Origin: Gemmatimonadetes bacterium 2013_60CM_65_52
GTDB lineage: Bacteria > Gemmatimonadota > Gemmatimonadetes > Gemmatimonadales > Gemmatimonadaceae
DNA length: 64,000 nt
Reading direction: 5' to 3'
Assembly: GCA_002215645.1 (NCBI GenBank)
Contig: NGFI01000006.1
Span: 1-64,000, forward strand
The position numbers and the translations under genes were made by a program. Below the pieces are notes generated by a model. It was not told where the DNA came from, searched no databases, and was given only the letters and a program-made list of their open reading frames with translations. Shown here in pieces: positions 5,654-14,250 of the stretch (positions within the stretch are counted from its first letter, which is position 1; the number at the start of each line of letters is the position of its first letter).

Positions 5654-6871
5654 ATGTCCCACTGTTCGGTGTCTGGCGCAACTCGTGTCCTGATGACGTT
5701 CGCCGCCGCGGCGGTCGTCACCGCGTGCAGTAGAGACGCAAACGGATCTCCACCCGCAGGCAAGACTGACGCGGGCACTCGGTCAGACGGACAGAGCGTG
5801 TCGCCGAGCGGAGCGACGCGCTCCGCCACAGCCGGTGTGCGTGCAACGCCGTCGATCACGCTGGCGTCGTCCGATATCGCCGTGATCGCGCCGACCACCA
5901 TCGAAGACGGCGTGGCCCTCACCGGCGACCTGCGTCCCATCGAAACCATCGACGTGCGTGCACGGATCGAGGGTGACCTCACCGCGGTACTCTTTCGCGA
6001 GGGGCAGCAGGTGTCTGCGGGTCAGGTGCTCGCGCGCTTCGAGGCGAGCGAGCAGGAAAGTGCGCAGAAGAGCGCTGAGGCCGATCGCACGGCCGCCAGC
6101 GCGGATCTCGCGAACGCTCAGTGGACGTACGAGCAGGATGCGTCGCTCTACAAGGCGGGCGCCATCGCACAGCGCGATTTCAAGAACGCCGAGCAGGCGG
6201 TCGCTGCCGCGCGTGCACGCCTCGCTGCCGCCGACGCACGGTTGCGCGCCACGTCGAATCAGTCGAGGGACACCCGTGTGATTGCGCCTGCCTCGGGCGT
6301 CATCAACAAACGTCTCGTGGAAAATGGCGAGCACGTGGCGAAAGGCGCCCCGCTCTTCTCGATCGTACGCAACGGCACGCTCGAGCTGGCGGCAGCAATT
6401 CCCGCACGGCAGGCAAGTGCCTTGCGCGGTGGGCAGATCGTGCATTTTTCCGCCGACGCACAGCGCTTCGACGGAACGGTGGCCCGCGTGAGCCCGACGG
6501 TCGATCCGGCCACGCGCTCCGTGACCGTGTACGTGGACGTGCCGAATCCTGGTGGCACCATTCGCGGAGGCACGTTCGCCACGGGCCGTGTGATCAGCAG
6601 GACGCTCACGGACGTTCTCGCTGTGCCCACCGCGGCACTGCGGCAAGCCGTGGACAACGGCAGGCCGTTCGTCTATCGCATCGATGGCAAGTCGGTGAGC
6701 GTCGCTCCCGTGCAGCTCGGCGCAGTGGACGAGCGGCAGGGTGTGGCGCAGGTGACGGATGGGCTGCAGGCCGGAGACCGGGTCATCGTCGGCAACGTCG
6801 GCACGCTCGGTCGTGGGATGCAGGTCATCATTGCCGGCGAGGAACGGAGCGCCGGCAGCCGCAAGCACTGA
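5654..6871 (+). CDS. RND efflux periplasmic adaptor (membrane fusion protein), lipoprotein
   Basis: Joins the inner-membrane pump to the outer-membrane channel. The N-terminus is a lipoprotein signal ending VVTAC (Cys about residue 25), so it is probably lipid-anchored. Order of domains: membrane-proximal strand (VALTGDLRPIETIDVRARIEG), lipoyl half-motif with LFREGQQVSAGQVLARFE, alpha-helical hairpin (about 130-190), second lipoyl half (VIAPASGVINKRLVENGEHV), beta-barrel (AIPARQASALRGGQIV) and C-terminal domain (VGAVDERQGVAQV-type, ending GDRVIVGNVGTLGRGMQV). Its 405 residues are normal for the HlyD/AcrA class. It lies in one operon between the channel and pump genes. Confidence 0.93.
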   Translation: MSHCSVSGATRVLMTFAAAAVVTACSRDANGSPPAGKTDAGTRSDGQSVSPSGATRSATAGVRATPSITLASSDIAVIAPTTIEDGVALTGDLRPIETIDVRARIEGDLTAVLFREGQQVSAGQVLARFEASEQESAQKSAEADRTAASADLANAQWTYEQDASLYKAGAIAQRDFKNAEQAVAAARARLAAADARLRATSNQSRDTRVIAPASGVINKRLVENGEHVAKGAPLFSIVRNGTLELAAAIPARQASALRGGQIVHFSADAQRFDGTVARVSPTVDPATRSVTVYVDVPNPGGTIRGGTFATGRVISRTLTDVLAVPTAALRQAVDNGRPFVYRIDGKSVSVAPVQLGAVDERQGVAQVTDGLQAGDRVIVGNVGTLGRGMQVIIAGEERSAGSRKH

Positions 6872-6912
6872 CGGCGCGAGCTCCGGCCAGCGCATTGAAC
6901 GGACGGTAGGCC

Positions 6913-9900
6913 ATGTTCCTTTCGGACATCTCCATCAAACGACCCGTGTTCGCCACCATGATGATGGTGGCGCTCGTGGTACTCGGCGTCGTGAGCTACA
7001 AGCGTCTGGCGATCGACGAATATCCGGACATCACGTATCCGATCGTCATCGTTCAGGTCTCGTATCCTGGCGCGTCGCCCGAAGTGATGATGCGCGACGT
7101 CTCGAAGCCGATCGAGGAGGCGCTCAACACCGTTCAGGGCATCAAGGAGATCGGATCGACGTCGCTCGAGGGCATCACGATCGTTCGGCTGATGTTCAAT
7201 CTCGGCGTGGAGGTCAGCGTCGCGCAGCAGGACGTGCAGGCGAAGGTCGCTCGCATTCGACGTACGTTGCCACAGGACATCGAGGAGCCGGTCGTCCAGC
7301 ACTTCGATCCCAACGACGCGCCGATCATGGCCATCGCGCTGAAGTCGCGGGAGCGCTCCATCCGCGAGATCACGGATCTCGCCATCGAGGTCGTACAGCC
7401 GCGCATCGAGGCCATCGAGGGCGTCGGCGGTCTCAACATCGTCGGCGGCAACAAGCGTCAGATACGCGTGCAGGTGGATCCGGCGGCGTTGCGCGCCTAT
7501 GGACTATCGCCGGCCCAGTTGACGGCGGCCCTCGGGCGTGAGAATCAAGAGGTTCCCGCAGGCCGTATCGAACGTGGTGCGACGGAGCGTCTCGTTCGCG
7601 TCACCGGCCGCATCGTCGATCCTCGCGCGTTCGCCGAAATCCCGGTTGCGGTTCGCGGCACGACGCCCGTTCGCATTGGCGACGTCGCGACCGTCGTGGA
7701 TGGCGCTGAGAACCGGCGCACGGCGGCAGAAATCACGGATTCGACGGGCTCGGCGGAGTCGGTCTCGCTCGAGGTGCTCAAGGTTTCCGGATCGAACACC
7801 GTGCTCGTAGCCGACAACGTGAAAGGGGCCGTGCAGGAGCTCGTGCGCCAGCTTCCGCGCGACATCGAGATGCGCATCATCAGAGACGACTCGCGGCGCA
7901 TCCGCGAGTCGCTCGCCGACGTGGAGCTCACGATCCTCCTCGGTGCCCTGCTCACCGTCGCGATCATCTACCTCTTCCTCAACTCGTGGCGCTCCACGGT
8001 CATCACGGGCCTCACGCTCCCGGTCTCGATCATCAGCGCGTTCTTCATCATGTGGGTGTTCAATTTCACCGTGAACACCATGACGCTGCTGGCGCTCTCT
8101 CTCGCCATCGGCCTGCTCATCGACGACGCCATCGTCGTCCGGGAGAACATCGTCCGGCATCTGGAAATGGGAAAGTCGCACTCGGCCGCCGCGCGTGAGG
8201 GCACGAGTGAGATCGGGCTCGCCGTCATGTCCACGAGCTTCGCGGTCATCGCGGTCTTCATCCCGGTGGCGTTCATGGGCGGCATCATCGGGAAGATTTT
8301 CTTCCAGTTCGGCGTGACTGTGGCGTTCGCCGTGCTCGTATCGCTCTTCGTCAGCTTCACGCTCGACCCCATGCTGTCCAGTGTGTGGGCAGATCCGGAG
8401 GTCGAGCACAGCGTCAATGACGGTGGGGCGCACCAGCGTGAGCAGCGCGCGCACGCAAATCCCATTCGGCGGGCGGCCTTCGCGTTCAACGACCTCTTCG
8501 AGCGCATCGCCAATCGCTATCCGTCGTGGCTGCGGTGGGCACTCGGGCACCGGGTCGTCGTGTTGTCGATCGCCGCGGTGACGATCGTGACCAGCTTCCT
8601 CATTCTTCCCACGCTCGGGTTCACGTGGATGCCGGACGTCAACGGTGATGAGTTCACCGTGTCGTTCCGCGTTCCGCCGGGCTCGCGCCTCGAGTACACG
8701 CTCGCCCGCGGCCGCGAGATTGCCGCATTCCTGAAGCGTCAGCCGGAGACCGACTTCACCTACCTCTCGGTCGGCGGCGGATTTCGCGGCACCCCGAATC
8801 AGGGGAGCGTCTATGTGGCGCTCAGACATGGCCGCACGAGGACGCTGGCCGCAATTCAGAACGACCTTCGCGGCAAGCTGCGAGAGATTCCCGGCGTGAA
8901 GCCGTCCATCACAGGCCCCGCGTCCATCTTCAGCCGCGGATTTCCGCCCATCGTCGTCAACGTGCAGGGGCCGGAGGCATCACGCCTCAAAATCGCGGCT
9001 GAGCGCGTGCTTCAGGCAATGAAATCGGTCGACGGCGTGGCCGAGCCAAACTCGAGCGAGGACGGTGACATTCCGCAGCTCGACGTGCGCGTCGATCGGC
9101 AGCAGGCCTGGCGCGCCGGACTTGGGGTCGGCAGCGTCGCGGCAACCCTCCAGCCTCTGTTCTCGGGGCAACGAGCCACGACCTGGGAGGATCCGCAAGG
9201 ATTCGCGCACGACGTCGTGGTGGTGTTCCCGGACTCGCTGCGCAATTCCGCCGAGGACGTGGCACAGTTGCCCGTCGCCAGCTCCGTGAGCGATCCGTCC
9301 AACGGCCTTCCCTCCATGGTTTCGCTATCGCAGGTAGCGGAAGTCCGTGCGGGCGTCGGCCCGCAGCAGATCGAGCGGCGCCAGCTCGAGCAGCAGGTGC
9401 AGATTCGGGCCGGTGTCCTGCCCGGATTTGCGATGGGTAACGTGGCCAATGGGGTCCAGCAGGCCATCGACAACGTGGGTCTGCCGCCAGGCTACCACTT
9501 CGTGTTCACGGGCGACGTCCAGAACCTCGAGGAAACCAAGGGCTACGTTCTGAGCGCCCTCGGTCTCGCGGTCATCTTCATCTATCTCATCCTTGCGTCG
9601 CTGTTCGGATCGTTCTTGCAGCCTCTCGCCATCATGCTGGCGCTTCCCCTGAGCTTCATCGGAGTGGTCCTCGCACTGCTGATCACACGGGGCAACATCA
9701 ACGTGATGACGATGATCGGCATCATCATGCTGATGGGGCTCGTCACGAAGAACGGCATCCTGCTGGTGGACTTCACCAATCAGTTGCGCATCGAGGGCCA
9801 TTCGCGTTCCGAGGCGCTGCTGGGCGCCGGACGCATCCGTTTACGCCCCATCGTGATGACTACGTTCTCCATGATCTTCGGCATGATCCCACTGGCCCTC

Positions 9901-10107
9901 GCACTCGGTGCGGGCGCCGAGGTGCGGGCGCCGATGGCGCGGGCGGTCATCGGTGGCCTCATCACCTCCACACTGCTCACGTTGTTCGTGGTTCCGGTGA
10001 TGTACACGTTCCTGGATGACCTCGGACGGTGGGTCAGCTCCAGGCTCGTGTCGGCGGCCGCGCACGACTCGGACACCATCCTGCCCCAGCCAGCGGCGGG
10101 GGATTGA
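6913..10107 (+). CDS. RND multidrug efflux permease, AcrB/HAE1-type
   Basis: Proton-driven inner-membrane exporter of 1064 residues, the size typical of HAE-1 pumps. It opens with MFLSDISIKRPVFATMMMVALVVLG, the usual first transmembrane helix. Seen after that: periplasmic porter domain 1, a transmembrane block with LALSLAIGLLIDDAIVVRENI (the conserved acidic pair in helix 4 for proton relay), a loop after LDPMLSSVWADPEVE, porter domain 2 with a second first-helix-like segment (VVVLSIAAVTIVTSFLILP), and the last block with MTMIGIIMLMGLVTKNGILLVDF. Substrates cannot be told from sequence. The gene follows the adaptor by 41 bases. Confidence 0.95.
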   Translation: MFLSDISIKRPVFATMMMVALVVLGVVSYKRLAIDEYPDITYPIVIVQVSYPGASPEVMMRDVSKPIEEALNTVQGIKEIGSTSLEGITIVRLMFNLGVEVSVAQQDVQAKVARIRRTLPQDIEEPVVQHFDPNDAPIMAIALKSRERSIREITDLAIEVVQPRIEAIEGVGGLNIVGGNKRQIRVQVDPAALRAYGLSPAQLTAALGRENQEVPAGRIERGATERLVRVTGRIVDPRAFAEIPVAVRGTTPVRIGDVATVVDGAENRRTAAEITDSTGSAESVSLEVLKVSGSNTVLVADNVKGAVQELVRQLPRDIEMRIIRDDSRRIRESLADVELTILLGALLTVAIIYLFLNSWRSTVITGLTLPVSIISAFFIMWVFNFTVNTMTLLALSLAIGLLIDDAIVVRENIVRHLEMGKSHSAAAREGTSEIGLAVMSTSFAVIAVFIPVAFMGGIIGKIFFQFGVTVAFAVLVSLFVSFTLDPMLSSVWADPEVEHSVNDGGAHQREQRAHANPIRRAAFAFNDLFERIANRYPSWLRWALGHRVVVLSIAAVTIVTSFLILPTLGFTWMPDVNGDEFTVSFRVPPGSRLEYTLARGREIAAFLKRQPETDFTYLSVGGGFRGTPNQGSVYVALRHGRTRTLAAIQNDLRGKLREIPGVKPSITGPASIFSRGFPPIVVNVQGPEASRLKIAAERVLQAMKSVDGVAEPNSSEDGDIPQLDVRVDRQQAWRAGLGVGSVAATLQPLFSGQRATTWEDPQGFAHDVVVVFPDSLRNSAEDVAQLPVASSVSDPSNGLPSMVSLSQVAEVRAGVGPQQIERRQLEQQVQIRAGVLPGFAMGNVANGVQQAIDNVGLPPGYHFVFTGDVQNLEETKGYVLSALGLAVIFIYLILASLFGSFLQPLAIMLALPLSFIGVVLALLITRGNINVMTMIGIIMLMGLVTKNGILLVDFTNQLRIEGHSRSEALLGAGRIRLRPIVMTTFSMIFGMIPLALALGAGAEVRAPMARAVIGGLITSTLLTLFVVPVMYTFLDDLGRWVSSRLVSAAAHDSDTILPQPAAGD

Positions 10108-10139
10108 TCCGTCGCGAACGATTTGCGCACGGAGTCCGC

Positions 10140-10168
10140 TTGACGGATTCCGCGCGCCGCCGTACTAG
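10140..10168 (+). promoter_or_regulatory. Sigma-70-type promoter of the acidic/basic H1-like gene
   Basis: TTGACG (10140-10145), 17-base spacer, TACTAG (10163-10168). Transcription would start near 10175, leaving a leader of about 105 bases before the strong AGGAGG ribosome site at 10271-10276 and the ATG at 10282. Confidence 0.5.
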
Positions 10169-10281
10169 GGTGATTGTTGTCGGAGCGACGACGCGCCCGA
10201 GGAGGCACACGACGTGCAGCCGGGCCGCGGCGTCGGGTGCGAGTACCTGGTCCGACTGTCCTATCTCCAGAGGAGGCCGTA

Positions 10282-11019
10282 ATGCCGCGCGGTGACGAGG
10301 TGAACGAGGAGCTCCGCTTTTCAGATCGCGACGACGACGTCGATGATCTCGGTTACGGCGGTGGTGGTGGTGGATCCTCGTCCTACGACGATGAAGATGA
10401 GGAGGACGGCGGCTGGGCAACCCACAAGGATGACAGCGACGACCTTTGGGACAGCACCGACGACTCGGATGACGAGGAGGAGGAAGGGGTCAGCACGCCG
10501 CTGATCGAGGGCGACGAAGAAGAGGAGGAGAGTCCGCTCGTCGTCGCGCGCGCACCGAAGTCCGGCGGCGCGGGCCGGCCTATTTCGACCGTAGTCACGG
10601 CCGGCGCCGAGGGCACACCCAGCAAGCCGGTTACGGCCTCGAAGCACCCAGCTGCGAAGGAGCCCGGGAAGCACACGCCGGCGAAGCGCGGTTCGGTGCT
10701 CGCTGGTGCACCCGCGACCAAGCCGGTGCCGGCAGCGAAGGCGGCAGCAAAGAAAGCCCCTGCGAAAAAGGCACCCGCGGCAAAGAAGCCTCCTTCAAAG
10801 AAGCTGTCCGTGAAGCAGGCGCCGGAGAAAAGGGCGGCGGGAAAGAAGAAACCGGTGAAAAAGGCACCGCCGCCAAAGAAGGCCGCAAAGAAGGCGTCTG
10901 CGAAAAAAGGGACGCCAAAAAAGGGTGCGGCAAAGAAGGGATCGGCCAAAAAGAGCACCCCTCGAAAGGCTCCGGGCCGGAAGGGGAGTGCGAAGAAGGC
11001 CGCGAAACGCCGCCGCTAG
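10282..11019 (+). CDS. Charge-split protein: acidic N-terminal half, lysine/alanine/proline-rich H1-like C-terminal half
   Basis: A 245-residue protein of low complexity. Residues about 1-85 are strongly acidic (runs of D and E, for example DDEEEEGV and GDEEEEE) with a glycine run. Residues about 110-245 consist of AKKAPAKKA-, KKGAAKKGS- and PRKAPGRKG-type repeats like the tail of eukaryotic histone H1, AlgP or chlamydial Hc proteins. Such tails bind DNA or RNA without sequence specificity; the acidic half could mask or tune this. The start is set by AGGAGG five bases upstream of the ATG. A strong terminator follows. The function is inferred from composition only. Confidence 0.8.
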   Translation: MPRGDEVNEELRFSDRDDDVDDLGYGGGGGGSSSYDDEDEEDGGWATHKDDSDDLWDSTDDSDDEEEEGVSTPLIEGDEEEEESPLVVARAPKSGGAGRPISTVVTAGAEGTPSKPVTASKHPAAKEPGKHTPAKRGSVLAGAPATKPVPAAKAAAKKAPAKKAPAAKKPPSKKLSVKQAPEKRAAGKKKPVKKAPPPKKAAKKASAKKGTPKKGAAKKGSAKKSTPRKAPGRKGSAKKAAKRRR

Positions 11020-11038
11020 CGGTGGCACGGGCGGTGAT

Positions 11039-11077
11039 GACGGGGTGCGGTCTCAGGACCGCACCCCGTCTTTTCTT
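11039..11077 (+). terminator. Intrinsic terminator after the H1-like gene
   Basis: A perfect 14-bp stem (GACGGGGTGCGGTC, 11039-11052, with its complement at 11057-11070), TCAG loop, then TTTTCTT. It separates the H1-like gene from the histidine-kinase-like gene. Confidence 0.9.
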
Positions 11078-11110
11078 CCGTCTCCCGGCAGACGGGCGTA
11101 ATATCACGGG

Positions 11111-12178
11111 ATGAAGCCGCTCGAGCGCCGCGTGCTCGATGCCCTTCCGGCCACTGTCTTCGCGGTGGATCTGGATGGGCGAATCACTCTGCTGAACAGA
11201 TCTCCTTCGCGATTTGGTCAGCAAGACGGAGCGCCACCGCTTCCCGGCGGGGGCGCTGCCATCGGGGCTTCCATCTGGGAGACCATCGGCGACGCCGGTG
11301 TGAAGGACCAGGTGCGGCAGGCGCTGGCCACGTTGAGCGAAGGGCGTGCGCCAACTGCGAGCTGGGAATTCGATGTCGGTTCCGCGGGCGCGGGACGGAC
11401 GTTACTGGTGCAGGCCTCGGTCCTCGAGGACTCTCGGGCCCTTGTCGGATATGTCTTCGTGGTCTCGGACACGACCACTCGGCACAAGGAGTCCGACATG
11501 CCGGCGCGCCACGGGCACAAGCGGCGCTCGGAGGCCATCGGTGACGTATCCGCCGGCGTCGCACAAGAGCTGAGAAGTCCGCTCTTCGGCATCTCGTCCG
11601 CCGCACAGCTTCTGCGCTTCCGCGTGAAGGATGATCCAATCGTGGAAAAGAACGTCGGGCGGATTCTTCGGGAAGTCGAGCGATTGAACAGCGTCGTCGC
11701 GGCACTGTTGGAGTATGGGCGGCCGACACCGCTGCAACTGCAACCTGGCGATCCGGACGTCGTGTGGGACGGCGTGCTCGAGAAGCAGCGCGGAAGCATG
11801 GAGAGCCGCGTCTTGCACCTCGATCGCGCCCGCGCCGAGCCTCCGGTCTCCTGCAGCATCGACGCGCAGCAACTGGCCGAAGTGTTCCTGAACGTCCTGG
11901 GTAACGCGGTCGATGCCGCGCCCGAGGGCGGCAAGCTCTCGCTGAAATCGTCGCTCGCTCCCGACGGGACATGGCACTGTCGGCTGCACAACGATGGTCC
12001 AGCCATTCCCACCGACGTCCTTCCGCGGGTCTTCGAGCTGTTCTTCTCCACAAAGGGGGCGACGGGCATCGGCCTTTCACTCTCCAGAAGAATCGTGGAG
12101 GGGCACGGCGGCACGCTCTCGCTGGAGAGCACGCCGGCGCAGGGCACCGCGGCGACGATCGTACTTCCACCCGCGTGA
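11111..12178 (+). CDS. NtrB-like PAS histidine kinase homologue lacking the phospho-acceptor histidine
   Basis: A 355-residue cytosolic protein with an N-terminal PAS domain (about 5-120, LDALPATVFAVDLDGRITLL), a HisKA-like dimerisation helix (about 140-205) and an HATPase domain (about 240-355). The ATPase N-box (NVLGNAVDAAPEGG), a G1-like NDGPAIP, FELFFSTK and GIGLSLSRRIVEGHGG are present. The H-box that should read VAHELRNPL reads VAQELRSPL: residue 152 is glutamine (codon CAA at 11564-11566). It therefore cannot autophosphorylate in the normal way and may be a phosphatase or pseudokinase. A TAATAT hexamer ends six bases before the ATG. The stop overlaps the next gene (GTGA). Confidence 0.85.
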   Translation: MKPLERRVLDALPATVFAVDLDGRITLLNRSPSRFGQQDGAPPLPGGGAAIGASIWETIGDAGVKDQVRQALATLSEGRAPTASWEFDVGSAGAGRTLLVQASVLEDSRALVGYVFVVSDTTTRHKESDMPARHGHKRRSEAIGDVSAGVAQELRSPLFGISSAAQLLRFRVKDDPIVEKNVGRILREVERLNSVVAALLEYGRPTPLQLQPGDPDVVWDGVLEKQRGSMESRVLHLDRARAEPPVSCSIDAQQLAEVFLNVLGNAVDAAPEGGKLSLKSSLAPDGTWHCRLHNDGPAIPTDVLPRVFELFFSTKGATGIGLSLSRRIVEGHGGTLSLESTPAQGTAATIVLPPA

Positions 12179-13497
12179 CCTCCGCGTCGCACGCCGGGCC
12201 AGCGCTTGCGGTGCTCGTCGTGGATGACGACGAGATCGTGCGCAACGGCCTCGTGGCTTTCTTTGCGACTTTGGGCATGTTGGTGCGGTGCGCCGCCTCG
12301 GCGGATGAGGCGCGTGAAATTACTGCGCACGACGCACCAGACCTCGTCCTTCTCGACCTGCGTCTGCCTGGCGGCGGCGTCACTCTTCTCGAGGCACTCC
12401 GGGAAGATGATCCACAGGTCGGCGTCATCATGATGAGCGGACGCGCGGACGCGGTCTCGACCGCACAGGCGTTGCAACGCGGAGCGCTCGACGTCATCGA
12501 GAAACCTCTGGAGCTCGATGCGCTGCAGGCGAGCGTGATGCGCGTCGCCGAGGTGGTGAGGCTCCGGCGGGAGGTCGTCGTTCTTCGCGAGCATTATCAC
12601 ACAGATGACGGCGACGGCACCCTGTCTCCCTCGCTCGAGAAGCTCGTCGAGGTGGCGGCGCGCAACGACGACGTACCCGTGCTGATCGTCGGCGAGGCCG
12701 GAACCGGCAAGACGCTGCTCGCGAGGCACATTCATGATGCCTCGTCCCGCCGCGCCGAACTGTTCGTCCCGTTGTACGGCGACTTTCGCGGGTCTGATCT
12801 GCCCGAGCAGGGGTTATTCGGACGCGAACGGGGGACTGCGACCTCGGCGACGAGATCGCAGCGAGGACTCCTGGAGGTCGCGGCTCGCGGGACGGTGTTC
12901 ATCGCCGACGTGGATCGACTGCCCGCGGCTGTCCAGGCGAAGCTCCTCGACGTGCTCGAGAATGGCCGCTTCATGCGCGTGGGAGGGTCGGCGACGCTAC
13001 AGAGCGGGGCCCGCGTCATTGCCGCATCGCGAAGGCGCTCGAGCGACCCCGCCGGCTTTCGCTCCGATTTACATCTTCCCTTGCAGCTGTTGACGCTCTC
13101 CATCCCGCCGCTGCGGGAGCGTCGTTCAGATCTTCCTGGCCTCGTGCAAGGTCTTTTGCCCCGTTCGGCAAGGCTGGATCATGAAGCTGCCAGGGCAATC
13201 GACGAGTACTCGTGGCCAGGGAACGTGAGGGAACTGCGGGACGTTCTCTGGCGGGCCGCACTGCTCGCCGGCGGCCGGCCGATTTCCGTGCAGCACCTGC
13301 TGCTTCCGCGCGCCATGGGCGACCGGAAGTGGCGTGATGCGTTGAGCTTGGCCGATGCGGAGCGTCGCGCAATTACCCGAGCGATGCGGACCACACGGGG
13401 AAACAAGGTGCAGGCCGCCGAGCTGCTTGGTATCGCGCGGTCGACCCTGCAGGAGAAGCTGAGGAGAATAGAGCCGCCGGCGAACGATGAACGGTGA
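12175..13497 (+). CDS. NtrC-like response regulator with intact receiver but no GAFTGA motif
   Basis: A 440-residue three-domain protein. The receiver (about 10-125) is canonical: D17-D19, D61 in LLDLRLP, S88, K110. The AAA+ domain (about 150-370) keeps Walker A (GEAGTGKT, K179), LRERRSDLP and SWPGNVREL. However, the sigma-54-contacting GAFTGA loop is replaced by GTATSA (220-225), and Walker B reads FIADVD instead of the usual FLDEI. The C-terminal Fis-type helix-turn-helix (NKVQAAELLGIARSTLQEKL) is intact. It probably binds DNA but does not open sigma-54 holoenzyme. The GTG start overlaps the stop of the upstream kinase homologue, so the pair is translationally coupled. Confidence 0.85.
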   Translation: MTSASHAGPALAVLVVDDDEIVRNGLVAFFATLGMLVRCAASADEAREITAHDAPDLVLLDLRLPGGGVTLLEALREDDPQVGVIMMSGRADAVSTAQALQRGALDVIEKPLELDALQASVMRVAEVVRLRREVVVLREHYHTDDGDGTLSPSLEKLVEVAARNDDVPVLIVGEAGTGKTLLARHIHDASSRRAELFVPLYGDFRGSDLPEQGLFGRERGTATSATRSQRGLLEVAARGTVFIADVDRLPAAVQAKLLDVLENGRFMRVGGSATLQSGARVIAASRRRSSDPAGFRSDLHLPLQLLTLSIPPLRERRSDLPGLVQGLLPRSARLDHEAARAIDEYSWPGNVRELRDVLWRAALLAGGRPISVQHLLLPRAMGDRKWRDALSLADAERRAITRAMRTTRGNKVQAAELLGIARSTLQEKLRRIEPPANDER

Positions 13498-13692: not shown

Positions 13693-14250
13693 ATGCCGGA
13701 ACTGAACCCGTCCCCCGTTGCGCTGCTTCGCGCGCATTCGCGCCACGCGCCGTGGAACGCGCGCGGCCTCGCGGCGCACGTCACCGCGCTCGTGGACGCC
13801 GCCGGCATCCGGCCGACCAATGCCTCCGCGCGGTCGGCGCCCAGTGCGCGGTCCGTTCGATTTTATGTCGCCAGCGGACTGCTCGACCGCCCCGAGGGCG
13901 CGGGAACCGCCGCGACGTACAACTATCGGCACCTCCTTCAACTGCTCGCGATCAAGCTCCGCCAGCGTGAGGGAGCGACGCTGGATACGATCAAGACCGA
14001 GATGAAGGACGTGACGGGAGACGCCCTCGAACGGCGCGTCGCATCGTCACTGGCGCCCGCCCTGGGCGCCCACGCCGACCTTGCCGTGCAGAATTCCGAT
14101 GACGATCGCCCCGCGAGCTGGCGGCGATTCCCCGTGGCAGACGGCATCGAGCTGCACGTTCGCGACGGTGCGCCGGCTGCGCGCGAGGAAGCGCTCATCG
14201 CAATGCGCGAGGCGGTTCGTGCCGCGTTGGGCCGCGCCGACATTCGCTGA
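13693..14250 (+). CDS. MerR-family-like transcriptional regulator
   Basis: A 185-residue protein. A winged-helix region (about 15-105) has the MerR pattern SVRFYVASGLLDRPEG...YNYRHLLQLLAIKLRQREGATLDTI. It differs from textbook MerR by an N-terminal extension and a spacer before the recognition turn. The C-terminal 80 residues would form the effector/dimer part; no cysteine-based metal site is seen. The ATG at 13693 was chosen because MPELNPSP starts a plausible protein and an extended -10 (TGTTATCTT) ends eight bases upstream. The 195 bases between this gene and the NtrC-like gene hold no other recognised feature except a TATAGT hexamer at 13534. Confidence 0.72.
   Translation: MPELNPSPVALLRAHSRHAPWNARGLAAHVTALVDAAGIRPTNASARSAPSARSVRFYVASGLLDRPEGAGTAATYNYRHLLQLLAIKLRQREGATLDTIKTEMKDVTGDALERRVASSLAPALGAHADLAVQNSDDDRPASWRRFPVADGIELHVRDGAPAAREEALIAMREAVRAALGRADIR

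Follow-up and report, generated by a model that had tools for sequence, protein, structure and literature searches.

The C-terminal part of CarD from Myxococcus xanthus contains an acidic segment followed by a disordered basic one that carries RGRP repeats, and binds AT-rich DNA (PMC4374960). HMGA, H1 or the H1 tail can stand in for the HMGA-like region of CarD (PMC8156234), and the RGRP motif represents the AT-hook core (PMC4374960, PMC8156234). Acidic segments that pair with basic ones have also been described in eukaryotic proteins: the acidic domain of APLF grips histones via aromatic anchors (PMC9328677), in nucleoplasmin, basic stretches of the chain itself shield the acidic one (PMC5738438), and H1 and prothymosin alpha bind each other with very high affinity while both stay disordered (PMC7661507).

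The window, a 64,000-nucleotide stretch of DNA from a Gemmatimonadaceae bacterium, contains on the forward strand an ORF running from ATG at 10282 to TAG at 11019, which encodes a protein of 245 aa (25.3 kDa). By charge count, residues 1–84 comprise 37 D/E and four K/R (net charge −33), and residues 85–245 comprise 49 K/R and three D/E (net charge +46), including 40 K, as well as 37 A and 23 P. The charge-segregation statistic of the protein is 79; in 10,000 shuffles the mean was 19.4 (sd 5.9) and the maximum 47, with none reaching 79. Per residue, the protein scores 0.32 and its stop-to-stop frame 0.26; the latter value is the top one among 188 stop-to-stop frames of at least 150 aa in the 64-kb window, with a close runner-up at 0.24. 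The charge split reported for this ORF in the initial annotation is thus real, lying beyond all shuffles, but the description of one half as almost pure acid was overstated: D/E account for 44% of the acidic half, which also has a Gly-rich stretch and conserved aromatic residues. A longer protein beginning at an in-frame TTG (10174) was rejected because conservation begins at 10282. A chance or wrong-frame ORF was also discarded, the sequence being conserved across the family and under purifying selection. The features of the locus are listed in the table.

Features of the locus, with positions in the window
Feature	Position	Strand	Basis or remark
RND efflux pair, upstream	5654–10107 (pump 6913–10107)		only partly conserved at the family's loci
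Promoter-like TTGACG-N17-TACTAG, second hexamer weak	10140–10168	+	recurrence upstream of homologues
Leader dyad GCACACGACGTGCA	10205–10218	+	candidate operator or small RNA hairpin
Shine-Dalgarno AGGAGG	10271–10276	+	five bases 5′ of the ATG
Acidic-aromatic domain, predicted disordered, residues 1–84, net −33	10282–10533	+	charge, conservation, dN/dS
GRP, residues 98–100, putative degenerate remnant at the AT-hook position	10573–10581	+	63-homologue comparison
Basic K/A/P-rich H1-like tail, residues 101–245 and stop codon	10582–11019	+	composition, HC2 match, dN/dS
Intrinsic terminator-like hairpin, 14 pairs, then TTTTCTT	11039–11070	+	fold
PAS histidine kinase and sigma-54 response regulator, downstream	11111–13497		only partly conserved at the family's loci
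MerR-type regulator gene, constant neighbour	13693–14250	+	PF13411, 28.8 bits (cut-off 21.6)

The gene is present in most of the Gemmatimonadaceae genomes sampled. A profile of the acidic half, built from 30 sequences, matched 82 of 201 genomes in a sample of the order (82/98 within Gemmatimonadaceae, 0/103 outside the family) and 86 of 298 in a sample of the phylum (86/103 within, 0/195 outside); the two samples overlap, and the family split was read from the listing order, with family genomes first. The initial annotation had named presence in related genomes as a check, and the 82 of 98 family genomes bear it out. In the order sample, matches are single in all matching genomes but G175, which has a second one at a contig end. 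A search with the full-length protein gave matches in 31 of 60 relatives, with the window's own genome also showing in the table and some of the matches confined to the tail, and peptide patterns across species confirmed at least eight loci, all from Gemmatimonadetes or Gemmatimonadaceae. A phage or plasmid origin was dropped, since residues 1–95 matched no phage or plasmid sequence.

Twenty family genomes without a hit were examined, 17 taken from the profile searches and three (G016, G017 and G035) only from the full-length search; G023 was counted among the 20 though it has a weak profile match in the order sample. A MerR match is present in ten of them and absent from the other ten. Three of the ten with MerR (G023, G012 and G211) contain a charge-split frame resembling a diverged relative, located in G023 about 8.5 kb from MerR on the opposite strand, so 82/98 and 86/103 are lower bounds. 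The remaining seven genomes with MerR yielded no charge-split frame, and several of them have MerR near a contig end; true absence in the hit-less family genomes is only partly supported. Three contigs (L010, L024 and L093) stop at or within the repetitive tail. Assemblies seem to break here, and the presence counts are therefore probably too low. At L088 (8210–11131), the open frame continues into the downstream PAS kinase, probably owing to a frameshift in the repetitive tail.

For comparison of the sequences, 63 distinct homologues were drawn from 97 fetched loci, matches without a fetched locus being left out. Segment statistics employ 55 of the 63, the other eight being truncated, in a run-on frame or with a second acidic block. 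The part ahead of the charge minimum has 84.2 ± 4.1 aa with a net charge of −32.9 ± 2.7, and the tail past it has 169 ± 39 aa with a net charge of +42.7 ± 6.7. Within the genus of the window, residues 1–95 have a median dN/dS of 0.067 (45 pairs), and the part from residue 96 to the end one of 0.37 (defined for 33 of 36 pairs, the alignment of the tail being uncertain). Strong constraint thus falls on the acidic half and not on the tail; the initial annotation had counted a lack of conservation of this half as evidence against its proposal, and the result is the opposite. Among the 63 homologues, identity to the window residue is 0.97 at L55, W56 and D57, 0.92 at Y35, 0.89 at W45 and 0.78 at F13; at Y25 it is 0.83, with any aromatic residue found in 0.98. 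The mean identity is 0.88 for the five aromatic positions, against 0.64 for 36 D/E positions. Aromatics being conserved above acids, it is a sequence with aromatic anchors, and not acidity alone, that selection maintains. The suggestion that this half is an internal DNA mimic was a charge-only view, the best-kept residues being aromatics and the L-W-D motif. These residues suggest that binding is specific, whether in cis or in trans, and the acidic half probably does more than carry charge. Among 30 members, no Pfam match at E 0.01 was found in the acidic half, and the search for a solved relative of this domain gave a single, unconvincing match (E 0.88). In four homologues (L030, L089, L090 and L094), an extra acidic block lies between the AT-hook and the basic tail.

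The Pfam matches of the window protein, HC2 (PF07382) and Extensin-like, both lie in the tail. HC2 covers only residues 114–243, with 30.4 bits against a curated cut-off of 40, and two further models also score below their cut-offs (NF038053, 29.3 bits against 80; NF038052, 20.6 against 135). In six of nine members HC2 matches the tail at E 0.01 or better (best 1.2e-10; these are E values only, and a relative may pass the cut-off). The label 'H1-like' given to the protein in the initial annotation therefore suits the tail by composition and by the tail-confined HC2 match, but the score stays under the curated cut-off.

At residues 88–112, where the charge switches, 39 of the 63 homologues carry RGRP, PGRP, RGRKP or RGRRP, the last three being our own widening of the RGRP core; shuffled tails gave a mean of 0.46 and a maximum of 4, and the homologues are related, so these counts are not independent. 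When placement is tied to the charge minimum, the core is found in 34 of 63, against 0.28 expected. The strict core is absent from all ten members of the window's genus; GRP is retained in all except one that is truncated at a contig end.

AlphaFold2, run with an alignment of nine sequences, gave a mean pLDDT of 49.7 and a pTM of 0.14, with no helix of four or more residues. The protein is probably intrinsically disordered, in keeping with the absence of a predicted fold, though the alignment behind the model is shallow. No linker-histone globular winged-helix domain was found in the window protein by Pfam or predicted as a fold, and there was neither a Pfam match nor a predicted helix indicating a helical or phasin-type N-terminal domain as in AlgP and PhaF.

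As in CarD and HMGA, an acidic segment is joined to a basic segment predicted to be disordered. The order of acidic and then basic disordered parts resembles the described C-terminal region of CarD, and many homologues have an AT-hook core. Unlike CarD, the window protein has no CarD_CdnL_TRCF domain (PF02559), the polymerase-binding domain, by Pfam; the sole CarD/TRCF-domain match of the genome lies elsewhere, in a 1106-aa frame. The AT-hook repeats of CarD and HMGA were not found either: a pattern search gives one hook at most per homologue, whereas RGRP repeats are described for CarD, and the window protein lacks the strict core. By analogy, the family looks like CarD's HMGA-like module standing alone. 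HC2, NF038053, AlgP and PhaF share the K/A/P-rich basic tail; they differ in that an acidic-aromatic N-terminal domain is conserved here, and the HC2 and NF038053 scores are below cut-off. Eukaryotic HMGA and linker histone H1 would be comparable in disorder, HMGA also in its AT-hook and acidic region and H1 in its lysine-rich tail; here, however, the acidic part is N-terminal and Pfam finds no linker-histone globular domain. As described for APLF, the nucleoplasmin tail and prothymosin alpha, an acidic disordered segment pairs with a basic histone or stretch, with anchors in APLF; with these acidic histone chaperones the likeness is an analogy only, since acid and base share one bacterial chain here.

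The gene product is probably an uncharacterised DNA-organising protein, judging by its sequence; no paper on it was found among openly licensed PMC papers, which is not proof of absence from print. On balance, we lean towards a standalone, disordered HMGA/H1-like nucleoid architectural protein, the tail of which would bind DNA, while the acidic-aromatic domain would act in cis or on a partner. The likenesses to CarD, APLF, nucleoplasmin and H1/prothymosin alpha favour such a DNA-binding tail under acidic-aromatic control. The K/A/P tail, aided by the AT-hook where present, would contact DNA. The acidic-aromatic domain could bind a partner protein belonging to the transcription or the nucleoid machinery; alternatively, it could fold onto its own or neighbouring tails and release them reversibly, like a built-in chaperone, and such folding back would make DNA binding tunable. 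Reversible compaction of DNA and formation of condensates, put forward in the initial annotation, are plausible possibilities. Counting against the architectural reading are the genus without a strict AT-hook, the HC2 score below cut-off, a disorder prediction from nine sequences and the occurrence of K/A/P tails in granule proteins also. The genome contains one HU-family match, so the window protein is not necessarily its principal nucleoid protein; none of 36 genomes searched showed an archaeal-type histone fold (PF00808).

The neighbourhood was compared at 40 loci, 39 picked from the positives plus the window. A MerR-type gene is present in 39 of them, on the same strand within 5 kb in 38 and no more than 250 bases away in 17; the sole miss, L093, stops at a contig end. 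An RND pump of 60% identity or more is located upstream in 12 of the 40 loci and a window-like kinase downstream in 14. The MerR-type protein is 63–85% identical over the 39 family loci compared; its best PDB match is only at E 0.04 and the SoxR family is far below cut-off. It occurs in sister families too (19 of 24 genomes), where ten loci searched around MerR with the same threshold contained no charge-split frame; MerR is therefore older than the pairing. At 14 of 40 loci, terminator-like hairpins follow the gene on its 3′ side (at one, L088, measured from the run-on frame), and MerR may be as much as 4.8 kb distant, separated from it by other genes and by terminator-like hairpins. The hairpins and the long distances argue against a simple operon with MerR and weaken that interpretation.

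This constant neighbour is an argument for a transcription cofactor, in which the acidic-aromatic domain would bind MerR, a sigma factor or RNA polymerase, with the complex held on DNA by the tail. Such a protein would be analogous to CarD with a linear motif in place of the polymerase-binding domain, and CarD offers a precedent (PMC4374960, PMC8156234). A MerR match is also missing from 10 of the 20 hit-less genomes (Fisher p 2e-5 against 39/40, a test that sets loci against genomes and a difference that assembly gaps could cause). We nevertheless regard the cofactor as unlikely: the sister families have MerR without this gene, and synteny across intervening genes and terminator-like hairpins does not amount to contact.

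Still less likely is a granule organiser like AlgP or PhaF, the tail of which would tether to the nucleoid or bind polyphosphate while the conserved domain addresses a storage granule. Gemmatimonas aurantiaca is a polyphosphate accumulator, which favours this explanation. AlgP, with its K/P/A-rich H1-like tail, sits on polyphosphate granules and is required for their spacing; however, its N-terminal domain is predicted to be alpha-helical (PMC9239181), whereas the acidic half here has no predicted helix of four or more residues. Moreover, 39 of 63 homologues have the AT-hook core, which hints at DNA, and none of seven neighbours scanned with Pfam is a polyphosphate or PHA gene. An RNA-binding or stress polyampholyte that forms condensates or buffers desiccation or charge, without a specific function at DNA, seems the least probable of these alternatives. 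The disordered charge blocks would suit it, and lysine-rich tails bind many polyanions. However, the AT-hook core, a DNA minor-groove motif, stands at a fixed place in those 39 homologues, and there is no need for a generic polyampholyte to retain such anchors, aromatic and at a dN/dS of 0.07.

A bolder version of the architectural reading, rather doubtful as yet, is a self-chaperoned linker histone: one family would unite, in one disordered chain, an HMGA/H1-like tail that binds DNA with an acidic-aromatic domain resembling a histone chaperone. Each molecule would then bring its own release mechanism, and the protein could be the main chromatin regulator of Gemmatimonadaceae, where Lsr2 (0/31 genomes) and H-NS above cut-off (0/31, with one weak match outside the family) were not found in the genomes searched. 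Bacterial H1-like tails, being low-complexity and variable, say little about function. Here strong selection falls on the acidic half and its aromatic anchors, and point changes at W45 and W56 provide an experimental handle on the possible regulation of an H1/HMGA-like protein in a bacterium. A common, little-studied soil family thereby gains its own candidate chromatin protein, and it has culturable members, Gemmatimonas and Gemmatirosa.

Several signals around the gene recur among the 63 homologues. In most of them, the pattern A?GGAGG lies no further than 25 bases from the start. In 37, TTGAC-N-spacer-TA..R occurs at most 300 bases ahead of the gene (with shuffled upstream sequences, the mean was 0.82 and the maximum 4 of 50), at varying positions, so that not all need be the same element; a promoter consensus scan called no site reaching its threshold upstream of the gene, because the second hexamer is weak. 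For 29 homologues, the 160 bases ahead of the gene contain the dyad with up to two mismatches, where shuffles predict 0.2; its exact copy is unique in the genome and one-mismatch copies are at control level. It may be a putative operator or RNA hairpin; an Rfam search at 10050–11150 gave no match to a known RNA. Downstream of the gene, the fold of 11025–11085 has a z-score of −7.2.
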